DNA of 64,000 bases. Source: Vibrio sp. 16. GTDB taxonomy: Bacteria; Pseudomonadota; Gammaproteobacteria; Enterobacterales; Vibrionaceae. The DNA lies in NCBI RefSeq assembly GCF_963681195.1, contig NZ_OY808997.1:496001-560000 (forward strand). The letters are read 5' to 3'. The position numbers and the translations under genes were made by a program. Numbering within the stretch: the first letter of the stretch is position 1; the number at the start of each line of letters is the position of its first letter. This document shows positions 47,976 through 56,253 of this stretch, in pieces. The notes under the pieces were generated by a model. It made no database searches. It was not told the DNA's origin and saw nothing but the letters and a program-made list of their open reading frames with translations.

Positions 47976-49019
47976 ATGACCGTTTGGTTATTGGTAAAGA
48001 AATGGTTCAAGTCGCATGTCTTTCATTTGAGTAACCGAAACTTAATTATATTGAGTTTGGTGTATGTTGCTCTCTCGTGGGTAATGCTCAAACTGGCCGG
48101 TGAGCAGGCTCTCACACAAGATATTGCGACCTTCGTTTACTACCTCATGGTAACAGCCTCGACGGTGGGCTATGGTGACCTGTCGCCAAGCAGTAACCTA
48201 GGTAAGTGGATTGTTGTTTTATTCGTTATCCCTGGTGGTTTAAGTCTTTTTGCTGCTTTGTTGGGACGTGTAGCAAGTGGCGCCATTGAATATTGGCGTG
48301 CAGGTATTTTAGGTAAGCGGAGGGTTCGCGTGGAAAATCATATTTTATTGTTGGGTTGGAATAACGCTCGTACCATCCACCTTATTCGGATGTTGCAACA
48401 CGAAGAGGAAGGGAAACGACCCATTGTGCTTTGCAGTCGCTCCGACATCGAAAACCCGCTACCTGGCGAAATCCAATTCGTTAAGGTGACCAGTTACACA
48501 GACAGCCAACAAATGGAAATGGCCCATGTGGAAGGTGCAAGCTGCATAATCGTGGATAATTTGGAAGACGATATAACCTTATCGGCCTCACTCTATTGTG
48601 CGAATATCAATCCTGATGCTCACTTGTTGGCCTACTTTAAGGATGAAGCATTGGGTCACTTGTTGAGTCAACATTGCCCTAAAGCAGAGTGCATTCCAGC
48701 GGTTGGTGCTGAAATGCTCGCCAAAGCGGCGGTAGACCCTGGATCGAGTGCTTTGCATCAAGAGCTTCTTGCTTCAACTCGAGGTATGACTCAATACTCG
48801 ACGATATACCCGCAAGATCAGCCTTCTGCTAAGGTCGAGCAAGTCTTTAGCTTCATTAAAAAACACTACCAAGCGACTTTGATCGCATTCGATGTTGGGC
48901 AGGGAATAGAGCTGAATCCTGATCTTGACCGCTCAATTCCAGCTGGTAGCAAACTCTTCTATATTGCCGATGAGCGTATTGACTCGTTCAATTGGTCTTC
49001 CATGCATAAGGAAAAATAA
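47976..49019 (+). CDS. Two-helix potassium channel with RCK-like cytosolic domain
   Basis: 347 residues. Two membrane helices flank a pore with the selectivity filter TVGYGD at 63-68. A long cytosolic part follows, with a Rossmann-like RCK domain (NHILLLGWNNARTIHLIRML) whose nucleotide loop is degenerate (GWN in place of GxGxxG), so NAD binding may be lost. The ATG at 47976 is preferred over the GTG at 47970. Its TAATG overlap with the next gene implies co-translation, so K+ flux is probably part of the same stress module as the next three genes. Confidence 0.85.
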   Translation: MTVWLLVKKWFKSHVFHLSNRNLIILSLVYVALSWVMLKLAGEQALTQDIATFVYYLMVTASTVGYGDLSPSSNLGKWIVVLFVIPGGLSLFAALLGRVASGAIEYWRAGILGKRRVRVENHILLLGWNNARTIHLIRMLQHEEEGKRPIVLCSRSDIENPLPGEIQFVKVTSYTDSQQMEMAHVEGASCIIVDNLEDDITLSASLYCANINPDAHLLAYFKDEALGHLLSQHCPKAECIPAVGAEMLAKAAVDPGSSALHQELLASTRGMTQYSTIYPQDQPSAKVEQVFSFIKKHYQATLIAFDVGQGIELNPDLDRSIPAGSKLFYIADERIDSFNWSSMHKEK

Positions 49020-49435
49020 TGGAACTGTTAGCAGGCCTGTTGTCGGGCTTCCCAAACTTTGTGTTGTACTTTGGATTATCGATCGTATTCGTGATCGCGT
49101 TTAAGTTTATCTATGTTCGTCTCACTCCATACGATGAGTGGACTCTGATTAAAGAACAACAAAACACAACCGCAGCAGTCGCATTAAGTGGTGCATTTCT
49201 TGGTTACTGTTTAGCTATTGCGGGTGCCGCTAAAAACTCGGTCAGCATTTTAGATTTTGCTGTTTGGGGATTGGTTGCCATGTTCGCTCAAATGATCGCT
49301 TTTGGGATCGTACGCTTTGTTTTAGTGCCGAAAATTGCTGAACGTGTCGAGAATGACGAGCTGCCAGCAGGTATTGTTTTGGCGACAGTCTCTGTATCGA
49401 TTGGCGTTTTGAACGCTGCGTGTATGTCTTACTAG
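49019..49435 (+). CDS. DUF350 membrane protein (YjfL-like)
   Basis: 138 residues. About four helices (NFVLYFGLSIVFVIAFKFIYV, AVALSGAFLGYCLAIAGAAK, AVWGLVAMFAQMIAFGIV, LATVSVSIGVLNAACMSY). YDEWTLIKEQQNTTAAVALSGAFLGY is very close to E. coli YjfL. The function of DUF350 is not established. It starts inside the stop of the channel gene. Confidence 0.87.
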   Translation: MELLAGLLSGFPNFVLYFGLSIVFVIAFKFIYVRLTPYDEWTLIKEQQNTTAAVALSGAFLGYCLAIAGAAKNSVSILDFAVWGLVAMFAQMIAFGIVRFVLVPKIAERVENDELPAGIVLATVSVSIGVLNAACMSY

Positions 49436-49443
49436 GAGGCATG

Positions 49444-50004
49444 ATGAAACGCAGTTCTAATGTTCAACGTCCATCAATGGAAAAGGCGATTGGAAAAGCC
49501 TTTCCGTTTGTGATGTTCGGGACCTTTATGGTTTTTTCTCAATATGAGTCTAAGACAGAAGGTGCGATTTACCTCGATAGCAACGAGTGTAAGAACAATA
49601 ACCTCGAGCAAGCAGAGGAGTGTGAGCTCGCTTATCAAGAGGCTTTGGCGGAAGCAGAGCGTACAGGGCCTAAGTACAAAACCGAGCGCGAGTGTGAATA
49701 CGATTTTCGTGAAGATGACTGTTATTACAGCTCTCGCTACTTTTCCTACATCCCCCGTATGGGCGGCTACTACTATTCAACCGATCTCGACGATTTTGAT
49801 GGCTACAAAAAACGCTACTACTCGCAACCTATGTACCGTTACAAAAAAGGGTATTACTCAGGCAGCGGGCAGTTTTTTGGCTCTCACCGAATCACCCCAG
49901 TTACTCTTGCCAGTACGAGTTTGAAAAAAGGGGGAGGCACAATCGGCAGCGCAATGTCACGTGGTGGGTTTGGTAAAGCCGTGTCATCCAGTCGCGGCGG
50001 TTAA
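49444..50004 (+). CDS. DUF1190 protein (YgiB/YjfM-like)
   Basis: 186 residues. N-terminal MKRSSNVQRPSMEKAIGKAF precedes a hydrophobic segment (about 18-33, FPFVMFGTFMVFSQ). The E. coli YgiB cysteine/acidic motif is recalled by DSNECKNNNLEQAEECELAYQEAL and ERTGPKYKTERECEYDFREDDC. The end is Tyr-rich then Gly/Ser-rich (SRGGFGKAVSSSRGG). The lipobox seen in YgiB is not clear here. ATG 49444 is 4-5 bases after AGGAGG; an ATG three bases earlier is too close. Confidence 0.83.
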   Translation: MKRSSNVQRPSMEKAIGKAFPFVMFGTFMVFSQYESKTEGAIYLDSNECKNNNLEQAEECELAYQEALAEAERTGPKYKTERECEYDFREDDCYYSSRYFSYIPRMGGYYYSTDLDDFDGYKKRYYSQPMYRYKKGYYSGSGQFFGSHRITPVTLASTSLKKGGGTIGSAMSRGGFGKAVSSSRGG

Positions 50005-50006
50005 CC

Positions 50007-51170
50007 ATGTTACGCCGAGAAATCAAAGAGCGACCAGACTGGAAAGCCCTCGCGCAAAGGTACGGGTTTGGCTTTCATTCGATGTACGATAAGCCGTATT
50101 GGGATGAGTCTGCGTTTTATCAATTCAATTTGCAGCAGATCGAACACGATCTTGAAGCGCCGACGGAAGAGCTTCATCAGATGTGTTTATCCATCGTCGA
50201 CAAAGTACTACGTGATGAGCAGTTGATTCGCCGATGCGCGATCCCAGAAGCTATGTGGGATCAAGTCAGAGCTTCGTGGCTACGTAATGAACCATCGCTC
50301 TATTCTCGATTGGATTTCGCTTATAACGGTAGCGGCCCTGCCAAGCTGTATGAAAATAATGGCGATACCCCGACGAGCCTATTCGAAACCGCGTTTTGGC
50401 AGTGGGTCTGGTTGGAAGATGTGGTCAATCAAGGGGTAATGGCGCGAAACGCCGATCAGTTTAATATCCTACAAGACTATCTTATTGAGCGCTTTAAAGA
50501 GATCTCGACCTTGCAACCAGGTCAGGTGCTGCACTTTAGTTGCTGCAAATACACCGAAGAAGATAAGGGCACGGTTCAATACCTAGAAGATTGTGCCAAG
50601 GAGGCTGGCTTGCAAACGGCCTTTGTTTACGTCGAAGATATTGGCGTCAGCCGACAAGGCCACTTTGTTGACAGCAATGATCGCGAAATTCGTTGGATGT
50701 TCAAACTCTACCCTTGGGAGTTTATGTTTGAGGATCCGTATTCTGTTCATTTAGCGACGGCGAACGTGAACTGGCTAGAGCCAATGTGGAAGTCTATTTT
50801 ATCCAACAAAGCCTTGCTGCCCTTATTGTGGCAAGAGTTTGAAGGCCATCCTAATTTGCTACCAGCCTATTTTAGTGATGATGCCAAGGCGGCAACACTC
50901 AAAGACTACGTGGTTAAACCGCTGTTTTCCCGCGAGGGGGCGAACATCGAGATAGTTAGAGAGGGTCGCTCAACGGTAAAGACGGACGGACCTTACCAGT
51001 CGGACTTATCGATTGTGCAGCAATACGCACCGTTGCCAAAGTTTGGTGACAACTACACCCTAGTTGGCAGTTGGTTAGTCAATGATCGTGCGGCGGGCAT
51101 TTCAATTCGAGAAGATGAGTCATTAGTCACCCAAGATATGGCGCGCTACATTCCTCATGTGATTTTGTAG
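50007..51170 (+). CDS. Glutathionylspermidine synthase-like ATP-grasp ligase (YgiC-like)
   Basis: 387 residues, the length of E. coli YgiC. Closely parallel throughout: RPDWKALAQRYGFGFHSMYD, PSLYSRLDFAYNGSGPAKLYENNGDTPTSL, SCCKYTEEDKGTVQYL, MFKLYPWEFMF, VVKPLFSREGANIEI and QDMARYIPHV. The GSP_synth ATP-grasp core makes amide bonds to spermidine in the named enzyme, but this stand-alone class lacks the amidase half and its substrate is unknown. Starts 2 bases after the DUF1190 gene. Confidence 0.87.
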   Translation: MLRREIKERPDWKALAQRYGFGFHSMYDKPYWDESAFYQFNLQQIEHDLEAPTEELHQMCLSIVDKVLRDEQLIRRCAIPEAMWDQVRASWLRNEPSLYSRLDFAYNGSGPAKLYENNGDTPTSLFETAFWQWVWLEDVVNQGVMARNADQFNILQDYLIERFKEISTLQPGQVLHFSCCKYTEEDKGTVQYLEDCAKEAGLQTAFVYVEDIGVSRQGHFVDSNDREIRWMFKLYPWEFMFEDPYSVHLATANVNWLEPMWKSILSNKALLPLLWQEFEGHPNLLPAYFSDDAKAATLKDYVVKPLFSREGANIEIVREGRSTVKTDGPYQSDLSIVQQYAPLPKFGDNYTLVGSWLVNDRAAGISIREDESLVTQDMARYIPHVIL

Positions 51171-51188
51171 TCTAGATGTAAAGTGATT

Positions 51189-51220
51189 AGCCCCTTAGAA
51201 TCAGCGCTAAGGGGCTTTTT
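51189..51220. terminator. Terminator between the YgiC-like gene and the copper operon
   Basis: Ten-base arms AGCCCCTTAG / CTAAGGGGCT with a T-run on the plus strand (TTTTT), 18 bases after the stop. The PCuAC gene ends 3 bases beyond, so it may serve both strands. Confidence 0.87.
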
Positions 51221-51222
51221 CG

Positions 51223-51684
51223 TTAATGGGCGTATACGTGTCCGTTCGCTTCAACCGCTAATTCGACTTCAACCTTGCCAGCGTGCTTAAATTGCAACGT
51301 CATCGGGAATCGGTCACCTTGCTTGTATGATTGCTTAGGATTAAAAATCATTAAGTGATAACCCCCTGGCTCAAACATTACCGTCTTCATGCTGCCAATG
51401 CGCACGCTATCAATTTTCTTCATTTTCATGACACCATCCGCCATCTCATGCGTGTGAATCTCGACATGATCGGCGATTGGTGTAGAAGCGCTGATTAGAA
51501 AATCGTCTTTACTCGCTAGGTTTTTAAACTGGAAAAAACCAGCAATGACCGCGGCATTAGGCGGCGCTTCACGGCTCCATGGGTGATCGATTTGCATGCT
51601 GTCAGCAGTGTATTCGTGGGCGAACAGCTGAGTGCTAAATAGCGTTGCCACTAGGGCGAACAGTTGAGCGTATTTTTTCATCAT
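51223..51684 (-). CDS. PCuAC-family periplasmic copper chaperone
   Basis: 153 residues. Signal peptide MMKKYAQLFALVATLFSTQLFA. The PCu(A)C domain has the copper ligands expected in the pattern HxxxM...HxM: HTHEMADGVMKM and GGYHLMIFN. Such proteins hold Cu(I) and deliver it to cytochrome oxidase. It is the last gene of the MbnP-MbnH operon, 21 bases after the barrel gene. The N-terminal AHEYTADSMQIDHPW and C-terminal HVYAH histidines may extend the binding site. Confidence 0.9.
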   Translation of the reverse strand: MMKKYAQLFALVATLFSTQLFAHEYTADSMQIDHPWSREAPPNAAVIAGFFQFKNLASKDDFLISASTPIADHVEIHTHEMADGVMKMKKIDSVRIGSMKTVMFEPGGYHLMIFNPKQSYKQGDRFPMTLQFKHAGKVEVELAVEANGHVYAH

Positions 51685-51705
51685 TAACCTTCTTATATCG
51701 TTAGA

Positions 51706-52845
51706 TTACCAAGTTAAATTGCCTTGATAGACAAGCCAGAACGCCGTCTGATTTTGCTCATCTATCTGTTCATAATTTGCTTGTAGTCGCAGTAGCTGCA
51801 TCGGAGCGAAACGCCAGTTAACCACGGCACTGTAGCGCTGAGGCGTGAGGCCTTTGGCATCTAGTGCTTGTTCAAAGTCTCGACTGGTGTTGGTGACTCG
51901 ATTATCTGTGTGCAGCCAGTCGTATCTCAGTCCCAACTCTAGTTGGTCATTCTGCCATCGCAGTTGACTTGAAAGCCCTTGCTGGAAGGCCGAGAGCTCG
52001 GTGTTGATTTGCTGAGAATCGACCAGGTTTGCGTCTAGCCGTTGTCCCATCCACTCGACATCCCAGGTCAGCTGTTGCCATTTCAGCTGGCTAGACACAC
52101 TCACTAGTTGGGTGTCTCCTGCGAAAGTCATCGGACTGGTTTGGCTGGTATGCTTGTGGCTGTGTCCATCATCTTGCTGGTTGCTTCTCTGCTGAGCCGT
52201 AAACTGCGCTGCACTCGCGACCAATGTCAGCTGGTACTGCGAGCGCAGTTGATACCACTGATAAAGTGCGCCAAATGCTGCTGGAGAGGCAGAGTCGGCT
52301 TGTGCAGGAAATTGATCGCCCCGGCCGAGCCATAAAGTCAGGTCTTGGCGATTGGTCGCATAGGTCACATGCACACTGTCATCTTGGTATTGATTAGCCA
52401 AGAACGCCTGTTGGGCTAGGGTAGGATCTAAAAATGACCAATCATGCTCATGGGTCGCATTATAGAGACCGATAGGGCTGAGCTGCCGACCGATACGCAG
52501 TGTCCAGTTTTGATGAAGGTAAGGTTGTAGCCACAGCTCTTCAATCTCGATAGCCTCTCCGTGGTGACTTCCAACCACTAATTTGGCCGCTAAAATCTGA
52601 TCTAAGCTGGCTAACAATCCCAACTCGCCATGCATCAGTTGCAACCCTTGTTCATGGTGGGAAACGTGCGCATCAGTGATCACGCCGGGGACTGAATACG
52701 GCTCTTCCCGGCTGGTTTGGTAATAGCCGAACTGGGCAAACAGATTGGACTGGAGGTTAACCTGTTGCCAGATAGGTTCAATCGGGTTTGCACTTGCTAC
52801 GCTTGAAAAGGCGCACAAAGCGGTTGCGATGTTTATGACTCTCAT
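51706..52845 (-). CDS. Outer-membrane beta-barrel protein with His-rich loop
   Basis: 379 residues. Signal peptide MRVINIATALCAFSSVASA, then repeated amphipathic strands (SNLFAQFGYYQTSRE, LRIGRQLSPIGLYN, VHVTYATNRQDLTLWLGRG, LELGLRYDWLHTDNRV, LRLQANYEQIDEQ) ending in an aromatic-rich strand (QTAFWLVYQGNLTW). IGRQLSPIGLYN recalls phosphate-selective porin-like barrels. The loop QQDDGHSHKHTSQTSP near residue 232 is a likely metal-binding patch. Its ATGA overlaps the MbnH stop. Function unknown; a copper-linked porin or receptor is inferred. Confidence 0.72.
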   Translation of the reverse strand: MRVINIATALCAFSSVASANPIEPIWQQVNLQSNLFAQFGYYQTSREEPYSVPGVITDAHVSHHEQGLQLMHGELGLLASLDQILAAKLVVGSHHGEAIEIEELWLQPYLHQNWTLRIGRQLSPIGLYNATHEHDWSFLDPTLAQQAFLANQYQDDSVHVTYATNRQDLTLWLGRGDQFPAQADSASPAAFGALYQWYQLRSQYQLTLVASAAQFTAQQRSNQQDDGHSHKHTSQTSPMTFAGDTQLVSVSSQLKWQQLTWDVEWMGQRLDANLVDSQQINTELSAFQQGLSSQLRWQNDQLELGLRYDWLHTDNRVTNTSRDFEQALDAKGLTPQRYSAVVNWRFAPMQLLRLQANYEQIDEQNQTAFWLVYQGNLTW

Positions 52846-54005
52846 TGGCTTACCTCTGCAACGAATGGGTTGGCGTAACGAGGGTTACTAATGAATACGG
52901 GGTCGCTTAAAGCGTTGAGAAATGCCAACATGTCTTGCTTTTCTTGTGCGCTGAGCGTGAAACCTTTAACAAACTCACTCTTATTGGGATTAATGCGCCC
53001 GTCACCTTGATGTTCACCTGAGGTGATGTTTCGACCGCCATTGGCATAAAAGTCGAGCACTTCCGCTAAACTCGCGATGCTTCCATCGTGCATGTATGGC
53101 GCGGTAAAGGCGACGTTTCTCAGCGTTGGTGGTCGGAATTTACCTTTATCGCTTGGGTTTTGGGTGACGCTAAACAGGCCGTTATCTTCAATTGGGTAAC
53201 TGCCTTGTGAGTCAAGGTTGTATAAGCCGGTATTAAAGAAGGGCCTGGACACAAACACTGAACCGTCATGCAAGGTAGAGTCGCTGAAATTGAACCCATT
53301 ATGGCAGTGAAAACACTCCATCTTTTCACTGTTGAACAGGTCTTGGCCCCGCATTGCAGAGCTGCTCATTGTACCGCGGTCAAAAGGCGAATCTTTGGAG
53401 ATCAAAGCTCGGTTAAACACGGCCAACGCTTTAATCACGTTGGGAAACGTAAAACTGTCTTGGTGATTGGGAAAGGCGTTATTGAACAACTCTTGATACA
53501 AAACGTCATCGCGAAAGCGCTGTAAAATGGTCTCTCGGTTGCTATCGTTGATGCCCATCTCGACTGGGAACTCACCAAAGAGCGGGATCACCAATTGCTG
53601 CTCAATCTCCTTGAGGATCGGATTAGCCCATGTGTACGACGCGTTATAGGCGATATTGGTCAGAGTTTGTGAGTTTCTATGCAGCACTTCTCCCGTCGAG
53701 CCAGTGGGCACTTTTACCCCATCAGAAAAAGCCAGCGCTTGCTGGTGGCAAGATTCGCACGACATGGTTTGATTGCCCGACAATCGAACGTCATAGAATA
53801 GATGACGACCAAGCTGAAACTTTTCTTCCGTTGCTGGATTCTCTGCAGGCTCTTTAGGCAAAGGAAGCGTGCCCGTTTGATAGTCGAAACCGTACGCGTT
53901 CACTGAGCTTTGCGGCTCTACCGTATAATTGGATTCACTGCCACAGCCCGCGACCAATGCGATCACGAGCAATGCCAGCAAAGCAAACTTAAGGTCTGCT
54001 GGCAT
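52842..54005 (-). CDS. MbnH-like diheme cytochrome c peroxidase/MauG family lipoprotein
   Basis: 387 residues. A lipobox LVAGC (Cys21) anchors it. Two CxxCH sites, CESCH (83-87) and CFHCH (231-235), plus RPPTLRNVAFTAPYMHDGS, are the hallmarks of the diheme peroxidase/MauG group. Its partner gene is an MbnP homologue, so MbnH is the closest functional class. Known MbnH forms a high-valent diheme state and oxidises a Trp of MbnP. The start at 54005 has GGAG 8 bases upstream; upstream in-frame codons overlap MbnP. Confidence 0.86.
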   Translation of the reverse strand: MPADLKFALLALLVIALVAGCGSESNYTVEPQSSVNAYGFDYQTGTLPLPKEPAENPATEEKFQLGRHLFYDVRLSGNQTMSCESCHQQALAFSDGVKVPTGSTGEVLHRNSQTLTNIAYNASYTWANPILKEIEQQLVIPLFGEFPVEMGINDSNRETILQRFRDDVLYQELFNNAFPNHQDSFTFPNVIKALAVFNRALISKDSPFDRGTMSSSAMRGQDLFNSEKMECFHCHNGFNFSDSTLHDGSVFVSRPFFNTGLYNLDSQGSYPIEDNGLFSVTQNPSDKGKFRPPTLRNVAFTAPYMHDGSIASLAEVLDFYANGGRNITSGEHQGDGRINPNKSEFVKGFTLSAQEKQDMLAFLNALSDPVFISNPRYANPFVAEVSQ

Positions 54006-54010
54006 GTTGA

Positions 54011-54907
54011 TTACTCCACTGACACCCAAGTTTGCGCACTGCTACAATCATCAGCTACGCATTGACCTGTGACGAGATCAAGCCCTAAATTGTCGAAGAT
54101 GCCCTGACAATCGGGATCGCTACTGGAAGACATGCAGCCCGGAGGAGTATTGGCGGTATTGGCGCTAATATCGCTGTTTGCGACCAGCTTTTGATAGTCA
54201 AACACTATGGTGTGATCTTTAACGTTGTAGCTATCAAACTGATAAGTCGGGCGATTAGGACGAGAGGTCGCGCAGTTTATGATTTCGTTTTCAGCGTCGA
54301 GCACTTCACATCCTGTGGTGCCTAGATGAATATTCCAACCTGAGACATCTAAACGCAGATGTTTATGGCCGTTTTGCCAGCTCCAATTCATGCCCATCAC
54401 ATCCAACGGGGAGACCGCATCATCGCCATCGATACCAAAATGATTCAGCTCGGTAGGTACACCAATGGTGAAGCGCACTCCCGAGTAATCTCCTTGTGGG
54501 ACGTAGCCTTTAATTTGTGTATTGATCGACTCGTTACCGTTTGCGCAGCTATCTGCGCCAGTTTCAAAGTCGAGTAGGGCGACATTTTGGTACTGCCATC
54601 TACCATCTTGTTCAAGTTGCACAGCGGTCTTATCGCCATTGTCGTTGATAAGTTGAATGTCTGACAGATATAGGCGAGCGTCTTTAAACTCAGGGTTAAC
54701 ATTCGTGGTGCCTGCCAGTGCATTGTCCATTTGACGACACTCAACTGGGTGTTCGCCAACACGGGCGTTAAAGGTTAAGGTCACGGGTTGCAGTGAGCGC
54801 TGCTCTGCTGATGGCGAATCTGAGCCAGAGCCGCCTCCGCAGCCAGCAATGAAACCGACGAAGAGAGAAGCCGCAATCATCTGCGAGCTGTTAGATTGGT
54901 TGAACAT
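54011..54907 (-). CDS. MbnP-family lipoprotein, probable copper-binding partner
   Basis: 298 residues. Lipobox FIAGC puts the lipidated Cys at 23, then a Gly/Ser linker. The MbnP-type domain shows LTFNARVGEHPVECRQ, ARLYLSDIQLINDNGD, DYSGVRFTIGVP and NWSWQNGHKHLRLDVSGWNIHLG, rich in Trp and His. In characterised pairs one MbnP Trp becomes kynurenine by MbnH and the protein binds copper. Several candidates are visible (NWSWQNGHKH region). Several cysteines likely form disulfides. It precedes mbnH with 5 bases to its start. Confidence 0.83.
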   Translation of the reverse strand: MFNQSNSSQMIAASLFVGFIAGCGGGSGSDSPSAEQRSLQPVTLTFNARVGEHPVECRQMDNALAGTTNVNPEFKDARLYLSDIQLINDNGDKTAVQLEQDGRWQYQNVALLDFETGADSCANGNESINTQIKGYVPQGDYSGVRFTIGVPTELNHFGIDGDDAVSPLDVMGMNWSWQNGHKHLRLDVSGWNIHLGTTGCEVLDAENEIINCATSRPNRPTYQFDSYNVKDHTIVFDYQKLVANSDISANTANTPPGCMSSSSDPDCQGIFDNLGLDLVTGQCVADDCSSAQTWVSVE

Positions 54908-55039
54908 GGACTTTCCTTCCTTGTTTCTGGCATGCGTATTATCGATTGGCTAAAAGCAACGCAAGCCAGCGCCTCGAGGTCATAGCGTCGCGGCGAATAT
55001 TGTATTTTTGAGGGTTTTTAAGTAGGCCGATAAGGCCTA

Positions 55040-55495
55040 TTAAGCGAGGAAAGCCAAAGGTGGAGACTGCTTGGGAGCCACCGAAAGATAGAACTTACGT
55101 TGGCAAAGCAGTAAAGGTGCAGCAATGCTGCGGGTGTTGACTCGGCATAGCCACAAAGCGATAGCTGCCAAGACAATGGCCATGATGAGAATAGAAAGTT
55201 TGCACACATCCAGCAGTGGACAGCTGAACTTTAATGGATCGTGTATCTCGTTGCTATCGAGCGTAGCGCTGTTGTTATCTTCGATCAGTTCGTTGATGTC
55301 CACCCATTTAAAGCCGTCTGCTGTACACAGTAAGACTTTCTCACCCTGTGCTTCTGCTAGCCAGTTGTTGTTGTGGACCTGTGACGGGTTAAGTGACAGC
55401 GTGGCAAGCAAATAGAGCTGGAACAGCAGAGCGGTAATGACGTATAACGCCATCACTCTACGTTTTCTCTGCGAAATCCCTGTTATTTGCATCAT
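55040..55495 (-). CDS. DUF2946-like membrane protein at the head of the copper operon
   Basis: 151 residues. A helix (about 16-36, LYVITALLFQLYLLATLSL) and a second (about 103-120, SILIMAIVLAAIALWLCR) flank a loop with LLCTADGFKWVDI and SCPLLDVCKL. CTADG plus Cys motifs resemble DUF2946, a family found near copper-uptake genes. The start is uncertain: ATGs at 55495, 55492 and 55453 are possible and none has a strong ribosome site. Function unknown. It lies 132 bases before mbnP. Confidence 0.6.
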   Translation of the reverse strand: MMQITGISQRKRRVMALYVITALLFQLYLLATLSLNPSQVHNNNWLAEAQGEKVLLCTADGFKWVDINELIEDNNSATLDSNEIHDPLKFSCPLLDVCKLSILIMAIVLAAIALWLCRVNTRSIAAPLLLCQRKFYLSVAPKQSPPLAFLA

Positions 55496-55635
55496 TACAA
55501 TCAGTTAACCAAAAACGGCGCGGATACTAACAAAGAAATTAAGGGATTGTAATAATTGTTTTATAAAATGGTGATATTGGTGTCGTTTGGGGAATATAAC
55601 AGCGCGTTAGTTATTCGGAAGGAATGACTAGAGTT

Positions 55636-55666
55636 GAAAAAGCCGCCAACTGTGTGGCGGCTATAG
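55636..55666 (-). terminator. Terminator of the UPF0149 gene
   Basis: On the minus strand AGCCGCC / GGCGGCT with an 8-base loop and TTTTT, 5 bases beyond the UPF0149 stop. Confidence 0.85.
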
Positions 55667-55671
55667 GAGGG

Positions 55672-56253
55672 TTAAGCTTCTTCGGTCAGCGCTGCACCGC
55701 GCATGGTTAAGCCGCACAGCATCATAGGAACAGAATTAAAGATCTCTTCGAACTGCTCTAGACCCTCCATCCCTTGCTCTGCGAGAGTGGCTATCGATGT
55801 CTCTGGGTCGTAGAGCATACTCAGTGAAAGCAACACACCACCGAGCAGCGCACTGTCCTCGCTATCTTCTGGCATGATGGTTTCCCAATCATCTCTCGCT
55901 AACTGCCAACCTTGGAGAAAGCCTTCACAGAAATCACGCGTCGCTTCATTGACGATTTCTTCCTCATCCAATGCGCACTCTTGCGGCCATTGCCACTCGT
56001 TACTGAGAAGTGCAGGGCGGTATTCATTCCAAAGAGCGACAATCAATTCAACATAGGTTTCAAATTGCTCACCATCAGAAAATGGCGCCACTTCTTCGCC
56101 CCCCCATAAAAACGGGAGCCACTCTTCAGGAGGAAGAATGTTTGGCGCCGTGGCCATTGCCGTGACAAAGCCATGAGTTTTAGCTTGATTGATTAGCTTG
56201 TCTTGAAGCTCAGGAAGAGCAAGAAGGTTTTGTAAGCTCAAGGTAAATACCAT
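55672..56253 (-). CDS. UPF0149 (YgfB/YecA-type) family protein
   Basis: 193 residues from ATG 56253. The opening VFTLSLQNLLALPELQDKLI and the acidic helices FCEGFLQGWQLARDDWETIMPED and EDSALLGGVLLSLSMLYDPE are typical of the UPF0149 alpha-helical fold. A longer frame starts at 56295, but ribosome site and family length do not favour it. No enzyme activity is established. Confidence 0.8.
   Translation of the reverse strand: MVFTLSLQNLLALPELQDKLINQAKTHGFVTAMATAPNILPPEEWLPFLWGGEEVAPFSDGEQFETYVELIVALWNEYRPALLSNEWQWPQECALDEEEIVNEATRDFCEGFLQGWQLARDDWETIMPEDSEDSALLGGVLLSLSMLYDPETSIATLAEQGMEGLEQFEEIFNSVPMMLCGLTMRGAALTEEA

Follow-up and report, generated by a model that had tools for sequence, protein, structure and literature searches.

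The window analysed here, 64,000 nucleotides of the Vibrio sp. 16 genome (RefSeq assembly GCF_963681195.1, contig NZ_OY808997.1, positions 496,001 to 560,000 of the forward strand), carries a five-gene copper operon on its minus strand at 51223-55495. The first gene, called gene 1 here, is followed by the genes for MbnP, MbnH, an outer-membrane barrel and a PCu(A)C copper chaperone (PCuAC), in that order. Gene 1 probably encodes a copper-responsive nascent-chain leader that controls a modular copper-acquisition cassette; we infer the stalling, the direction of the copper response and the copper ligands. An earlier sequence-only reading of the window had given the five-gene order, strand and coordinates, all of which are borne out by the gene positions. 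The two close junctions that it named can be read in the sequence, the 5-base gap lying between MbnP and MbnH and the ATGA overlap between MbnH and the barrel. Its description lacked the 132-base spacer that separates gene 1 from mbnP, and it took gene 1 for just another membrane protein. The evidence favours instead a probable operon-controlling leader, which makes this the most informative gene of the operon.

A probable leader gene with an arrest-like tail

Gene 1 (55040-55495) encodes 151 amino acids and was assigned as a divergent DUF2946/CruR-type leader by homology, alignment and hydropathy. The protein is comprised of an N-terminal hydrophobic segment, a loop containing C57, H85 and C92, a second hydrophobic segment, and an arrest-like C-terminal tail. 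Invariant residues in a 26-member alignment include C57 (in LLCT..GFKW), H85, and C92 (in CP.L), as well as Y136, A140, P141, K142, S144, P145, and P146. The latter seven lie within the motif Y136-L-S-V-A-P-K-Q-S-P-P146 (55058-55090), identified at the codon level, which is followed by 5 variable residues and the stop codon. The tail, YxxxAPK[Q/H]SPP, is present at 35/35 gene-1 loci, with Y, APK, and SPP invariant. Its codons vary synonymously across these loci, with the full set of four codons in use for Ala and for Pro, and four for Ser, and conservation ends with the residue right after the motif.

There are 34 full-length alignable homologs of gene 1. In a broader set of 85 homologs (P0025-P0109), the 78 that match the pattern have 53 residues between the conserved Cys and the Pro pair. 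The same spacing is found in three further homologs with a different Cys box, and thus in 81/81 of those that bear the tail, which is missing from four (P0098, P0102, P0105, and P0109, of 84 residues). The distant Photobacterium proteins P0110 and P0111 have the tail FGPKQSPP and a spacing of 52. Beyond C92, the second hydrophobic segment reaches a 19-residue mean hydropathy of at least 1.3 in all 78 homologs measured, and the median distance from its end to the first Pro of the pair is 28 residues (22-34). If the ribosome were halted at the Pro pair, this segment would sit near the tunnel exit. The same measure gives 1.86 and 1.84 for P0110 and P0111, and only 1.21, 1.15, and 0.16 for three proteins described below, P0112-P0114. 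On sequence comparison, gene 1 carries the signature of a putative ribosome-arrest peptide with a diverged motif, xSPP rather than RAPP.

Gene-1 proteins are common in the V. harveyi/V. parahaemolyticus group, as illustrated by the gene-1/PCuAC loci L090-L103 and by one cluster (P0028) that represents 403 sequences from 1000 contigs and is named 'hypothetical protein'. A pattern scan of viral contigs did not find gene-1 relatives.

Relationship to the DUF2946, CruR and CutF leaders

Is gene 1 a DUF2946 protein, as the first reading had suggested? No PF11162 profile match supports the name. Gene 1 alone had zero matches in Pfam and NCBIfam at E values up to 0.1. The 26 alignment members, searched against Pfam at E up to 10, never matched PF11162 and returned scattered unrelated names, the best being Ninjurin at 0.005 for one member. 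There were no PF11162 matches in the window's own genome. What does stand is a remote relation through bridging sequences. A profile search with gene 1 found 90 proteins including P0112 (E 5.5e-5) and P0114 (E 9.9e-4), both labelled PF11162. P0112, which reads GEKVLLCTPEGFKWVD...ECALC...SRAPP, scores 31.1 bits against PF11162 (cut-off 23.7). P0113 is of this type too and lacks a Pfam match. Using hhalign, gene 1 matches the bridge set P0112-P0114 at 99% (E 7e-18), and the bridge set matches seven PF11162-hit proteins at 94% (E 1e-7). The Cys-Pro spacing is 52–54 in the bridge proteins versus 53 in gene 1. Both CXXC and RAPP are missing from gene 1, and the reading that fits best is a diverged DUF2946-superfamily protein whose CXXC has changed to CPLL and whose RAPP has changed to xSPP.

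Two copper-sensing leaders are the closest points of comparison. CruR of Bordetella pertussis, a DUF2946 protein, stalls the ribosome at RAPP; when copper relieves the stall, transcription is terminated by Rho, according to passages of PMC9426467. In the part of PMC12992588 available, this stalling is shown in vitro, is lost when the Arg is changed, and is partly permitted by RSPP. Like gene 1, CruR is a small exported protein in first position (the cruR-bfrG-bp2921 operon), with a Cys motif and a Pro-Pro motif at the extreme C-terminus at fixed spacing, a long spacer, and copper genes downstream. Gene 1 differs in having xSPP for RAPP and CPLL for CXXC, and in its second hydrophobic segment; the three RAPP-bearing bridge proteins have a weaker segment or none. 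In addition, a porin-like barrel lies downstream of gene 1, whereas the cruR operon has a TonB-dependent transporter. CutF of Rhodobacter capsulatus, as portrayed in sections of PMC9973294, is likewise an exported copper-sensing leader with a Pro-rich end and 45 residues between the motifs, and its family has PCuAC-type genes among its neighbours. CutF stalls with copper, opening a stem-loop over the Shine-Dalgarno site; no such structure is predicted in the window spacer. The RAPP-type arrest peptides more generally (ApdA, ApdP, SecM class) share with gene 1 a short Pro-ending motif at the C-terminus of a small exported protein. Unlike them, gene 1 has no Arg two residues before the Pro pair, and it has a conserved Y and APK further upstream.

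Our literature search found no paper on the Vibrio gene-1 leader family or its motif, and APKQSPP was not found in the text available for PMC12992588. DUF2946-led operons that contain MbnPH-like and PCuAC genes have already been published, such genes being listed among the operon contents in the relevant part of PMC9426467. Some gene-1 relatives may already be present in the clusters of the CutF survey, which retained proteins of <150 aa.

Spacer and promoter

The position of gene 1 is that of a leader: it comes first, copper genes lie downstream, and the spacer is 77–421 nt in 34 loci. In the window a hairpin, UAGGCC-UUAUC-GGCCUA (55023-55039, -9.1 kcal/mol), lies directly 3' of the gene-1 stop codon. 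The first 60 nt of the spacer (54980-55039) have 17 C and 9 G by base count, and this is a possible Rho loading region. There are twelve cassette-type spacers, defined as those of Vibrio loci with the mbnP-mbnH-barrel cassette or its traces (the window, L013-L020, L082, L085, and L089). A hairpin of -4 kcal/mol or lower is found within 26 nt of the gene-1 stop in 12/12 of these, with several differing stem sequences, and C exceeds G by at least 6 in the first 60 nt in 12/12. The two features occur together in 0/23 other gene-1 spacers (the hairpin in three, the C excess in two) and in 2/98 other same-strand spacers, this control set being 128 spacers minus those belonging to gene 1. The division into 12 and 23 and the thresholds were set after seeing the data, and the loci are related and therefore dependent.

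An alignment of 15 chosen loci shows a conserved promoter-like block upstream of gene 1, TTACAA-17 nt-TAGTAT (55524-55552, minus strand), with TTACA invariant. It is a weak match to the sigma-70 consensus and was not reported by the sigma-70 scan.

Distribution of the operon

MbnP is present in 11/296 Vibrionaceae genomes sampled. One of the eleven (L012) is of a different type, and gene 1, the barrel, and PCuAC were not found near it. Gene 1 is present in 28/196 genomes of the genus, at 31 loci. A same-strand PCuAC gene lies behind it at all 31 (in two pieces in L103), and MbnP, MbnH, and the barrel lie between the two at 10, one of which (L089) has a barrel frame interrupted near its start. 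Comparison thus shows that gene 1 and PCuAC are the constant unit and that MbnP-MbnH-barrel is an optional cassette between them. The same five-gene order occurs outside the Vibrionaceae in L105, L106, and L107, from two other families. L021 has gene 1, MbnP, MbnH, and the barrel, but the stretch fetched showed no PCuAC. In a sample of the order, TIGR04052 matches were present in 44/394 genomes, and 14 of the 17 such loci fetched from outside the genus (L105-L121) had neither a gene 1 nor a PCuAC match. The synteny across Vibrio that the sequence-only reading proposed to compare holds in that the order is kept among carriers, but the carriers are few. A complete path for copper from the cell surface to the oxidase, as that reading suggested, is plausible, but the cassette is optional, and the genome has a second PCuAC gene, beside an SCO1 gene on another contig. 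There are two COX1 genes in the genome.

Loss, gain and exchange of the cassette

Traces of the cassette are found where it is no longer complete. In L085 a deletion scar joins the spacer and a truncated mbnP start to DNA matching the last part of the barrel gene, with PCuAC next. In L182 (genome G363) gene 1 is present, the MbnP match is gone, only residues 272–387 of MbnH are left, and the barrel and PCuAC are kept; this genome has a separate, different MbnPH pair on another contig (L194). V. sinaloensis AD048 (G166, L132), which is placed in the same species as the window, has no cassette, and its PCuAC opens with an mbnP-type start, GGAAAGTCCATGTTTAAT.

The window cassette resembles that of a different strain. 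Bins lying wholly within 51300-55349 are 95–100% identical to V. sinaloensis DSM 21326 (L131). In both flanks it is AD048 that is 92–100% identical per 150-base bin, and DSM 21326 is mostly 60–90% identical. A single breakpoint on each side fits 134/147 and 211/220 informative sites, placing the tract ends at 51229-51231, in the last PCuAC codons, and at 55429-55435, near the gene-1 start. The simplest reading of the identity bins and breakpoint fit is that the ~4.2-kb tract 51230-55430, DSM 21326-type DNA in an AD048-type backbone, is an import into the window lineage. Judged by these alignments, MbnP-MbnH-barrel is a cassette gained, lost, and exchanged among Vibrio strains.

MbnP, MbnH and PCuAC

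The identification of MbnP and MbnH in the first reading is confirmed by profile scores far over the curated cut-offs. MbnP (54011-54907), a lipoprotein with the lipobox IAGC-G, scores 286 bits against TIGR04052 (cut-off 140) and 123 bits against PF20243 (cut-off 27), and matches PDB 7l6g at E 1.2e-35. The motif M173-x-W175-x-W177 is intact (MNWSW; Trp codons 54383-54385 and 54377-54379). MbnH (52842-54005), a di-heme enzyme and lipoprotein (VAGC-G), scores 488 bits against TIGR04039 (cut-off 363) and matches PDB 6e1c at E 2.1e-105. Its ATG start is used here, a longer frame with a TTG start beginning at 54029, and counted from this ATG its CxxCH motifs are at residues 83 and 231. MxWxW is found in 28/28 MbnP and two CxxCH in 29/29 MbnH sequences compared, these being the window and the fetched loci linked by BLAST to window genes, with the duplicate L104 and the profile-only MbnP of L012 left out. 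MbnH of Methylosinus reportedly converts the first Trp of the MbnP WxW to kynurenine. Window MbnP has a His just upstream of WxW, which we take to be a likely copper ligand. The last gene, PCuAC (51223-51684), scores 124 bits against PF04314 (cut-off 29, E 3.8e-36) and matches PDB 9yah at E 2.1e-22, with the HxM-type copper motif present. A copper role for the operon, also claimed before, is well supported.

Structures 7l6g and 6e1c presumably come from Methylosinus trichosporium OB3b. The window pair shares with them MxWxW and the aligned Cys, the two CxxCH, and adjacent genes, and differs in adjoining a porin-like barrel and PCuAC with no methanobactin genes beside it. This agrees with the sequence-only reading, in which the operon had no visible methanobactin genes. 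The contig also carries, at a distance of 1.8 Mb, the only MbnB-family match in the genome, which is part of a DUF2282 - MbnB/TglH/ChrH - DUF2063 - DoxX set (L180, contig C1, about 2.384 Mb); to us this set resembles a bufferin-type copper metallophore operon. A methanobactin locus was rejected, as there is no MbnB-family gene beside MbnPH and the sole one is in this non-methanobactin set; MbnA was not searched for.

The first reading called pairs outside methanobactin loci little explored, which is no more than partly fair. Since 2013 the literature has recorded conservation of the pair well beyond methanobactin producers (a passage of PMC3621798), and MbnPH occurs in DUF2946-headed operons in the portion of PMC9426467 noted above. 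MbnPH pairs of other families (L111, L112, L115, L116, and L118-L121) adjoin the gene for a protein of ~910–960 aa, transcribed divergently, and most examples of this protein have an N-terminal H(S/T/M)E/DHDKARFV-like or similar stretch.

The outer-membrane barrel

The barrel (51706-52845, 379 aa) had no match above cut-off in the profile libraries and has no family name. The structural model is a 16-strand porin (pLDDT 86) with no plug region, in line with the barrel described earlier. The GHSHKH of that description is at about residues 227–232, within a His-rich predicted outer loop, DGHSHKH (about 52150-52170). H94, E97, E102, and H132 are conserved, and there are conserved His and Glu at predicted outer loops. 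Solved structures among the fold-search matches listed are general and phosphate porins, and among the 50 matches listed for each search there were porins and other outer-membrane barrels and no copper-specific barrel. The predicted fold is like that of the OprP/OprO and OmpT-type 16-strand porins. The barrel differs from these in sequence (7–15% identity among the matches listed), in its His-rich predicted outer loop, and in its genomic tie to MbnH. Among 388 genomes the barrel subfamily is beside MbnH in 9/9 strong matches (8 with intact MbnH, 1 truncated), and in 0/12 loci with weaker matches that were checked. A TonB-dependent copper transporter such as OprC, CrtA, or MbnT was rejected, given the length of 379 aa, the 16 predicted strands, the missing plug, and the lack of such a Pfam match. 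A protein record named V. natriegens (P0001) is 61% identical to the barrel, and V. natriegens may have the cassette.

Proposed mechanism and alternatives

How might the leader work? The N-terminal segment of gene 1 would target the nascent chain to the inner membrane, and the exported loop would bind Cu(I), probably through C57, H85, and C92, as their invariance suggests. On reaching the C-terminal YxxxAPKxSPP the ribosome would stall, with the second hydrophobic segment ~28 residues from the Pro pair and thus roughly at the tunnel exit or membrane, where copper binding or membrane insertion could alter the pull on the stalled chain. In the absence of copper, as in CruR, the stalled ribosome would shield the C-rich spacer from Rho and the whole operon would be made. 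With copper present the stall would be released and transcription would end before mbnP. The genes downstream would then acquire and handle scarce copper: the porin-like barrel may pass it across the outer membrane, MbnH may oxidise the first Trp of the MbnP WxW to form a copper site, and MbnP may hand copper to PCuAC for oxidase assembly. More tentatively, though we find it a serious possibility, gene 1 may represent a new class of metal-sensing arrest peptide. Its YxxxAPKxSPP core would have no need of the Arg, C57/H85/C92 would sense periplasmic copper, and copper-dependent folding or insertion of a transmembrane segment at the tunnel exit would set the pull. Such a switch would be portable, having stayed in control across Vibrionaceae, Moritella, and Psychromonas as its payload varied between PCuAC alone and a kynurenine-forming MbnPH plus copper-porin cassette.

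Several observations weigh against a copper-released leader of this kind. The arrest core is without the Arg of RAPP, change of which abolishes CruR stalling in the portion of PMC12992588 cited above, and the CruR CXXC is reduced to a single Cys in CPLL. The hhalign match between gene 1 and the bridge set stops before the C-terminal tail, and gene 1 compared directly with the seven PF11162-hit proteins gives a weak match (34%). The predicted structure of gene 1 is poor (pLDDT 68), and no copper site can be located in it. Four cassette loci that fall outside the main Vibrio group (L021, L105, L106, and L107), all among the 23 other spacers, lack the spacer features, as do the gene-1/PCuAC loci except L082 and L085. 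The features thus do not accompany the cassette at every locus, and a Rho mechanism may not be general. In G268 (L020) the cassette is kept behind an interrupted gene 1, and on the cassette side the His upstream of WxW is missing in 6/28 MbnP (L106-L110 and L113). The G268 gene 1 is in two overlapping pieces with one internal TGA, upstream of a complete MbnP-MbnH-barrel-PCuAC set; the break may be a sequencing error, or the strain may have lost its leader naturally.

Could copper instead cause or prolong the stall, as in CutF, opening the mRNA over the next Shine-Dalgarno site and inducing a storage or protection operon? Gene 1 belongs to the same superfamily, CutF itself acts in this way (passages of PMC9973294), and there is a strong hairpin after the stop codon in the 12 cassette-type spacers, some spacers being more structured than shuffles (L013, z -4.1). 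Removal of the first 25 spacer bases opens the Shine-Dalgarno site by >0.1 in 3/34 loci (L019, L083, and L088), a behaviour like that of the CutF lock and a further point against release by copper. In the other 31 the gain is <=0.1. In the window the mbnP Shine-Dalgarno region (AAGGAAGGAAAG, 54911-54922) is predicted to be open (0.96 unpaired in the free spacer) with or without those bases, which speaks against a CutF-type lock there, and folding gave a hidden site of this type no support in the window. A porin and PCuAC also suit acquisition more than protection, in our judgement, and we consider a CutF-type leader unlikely. Less probable still is a role for gene 1 as a plain copper-binding small protein of the inner membrane that acts in trans, for example by passing copper to PCuAC, with its conserved C-terminus a protein-interaction motif. 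The second hydrophobic segment in all 78 homologs measured, the C, H, and C invariant in 26/26, and the PCuAC gene behind gene 1 at 31/31 genus loci would suit such a protein. The invariant tail, whose final PP is only a few residues from the stop, the fixed 53-residue spacing, the long spacer and first position, and the retention of leader and mbnP start upon cassette deletion all argue for a leader instead.

The function of the cassette is a separate matter. Instead of taking copper up, MbnP-MbnH-barrel may store it or give redox protection at the outer membrane, with the barrel a general porin that is there by chance. The lack of a TonB plug and the general and phosphate porins among the solved structures listed are consistent with this. 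It is rendered rather doubtful by the conserved His and Glu at predicted outer loops, and by the finding of the barrel subfamily beside MbnH in all nine strong matches versus none of the twelve weaker loci.

If gene 1 is the copper-responsive leader that we propose, fast-growing and tractable Vibrio would offer a likely translation-arrest leader whose motif is outside the RAPP class, and the question of how metal binding sets a stall would become directly testable. The MbnP/MbnH modification pair would be placed under a leader switch, beside a barrel that may serve as a copper porin independent of TonB. Strains in which the cassette has been naturally removed or exchanged while the leader stayed provide ready-made comparisons.

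Other features of the region

At gathering scores Rfam found no RNA families in 51000-55800, and in the sigma-70 and terminator scans promoter- and terminator-like sites were no more numerous in the region than in shuffles. Plus-strand DUF350, DUF1190, and glutathionylspermidine-synthase-like genes (49019-51170) converge on the operon. Between PCuAC and the last of these (50007-51170) is a terminator-like hairpin at 51189-51216, reported on the plus strand by the terminator scan, with matches of that sort about as many in the whole region as in shuffles.

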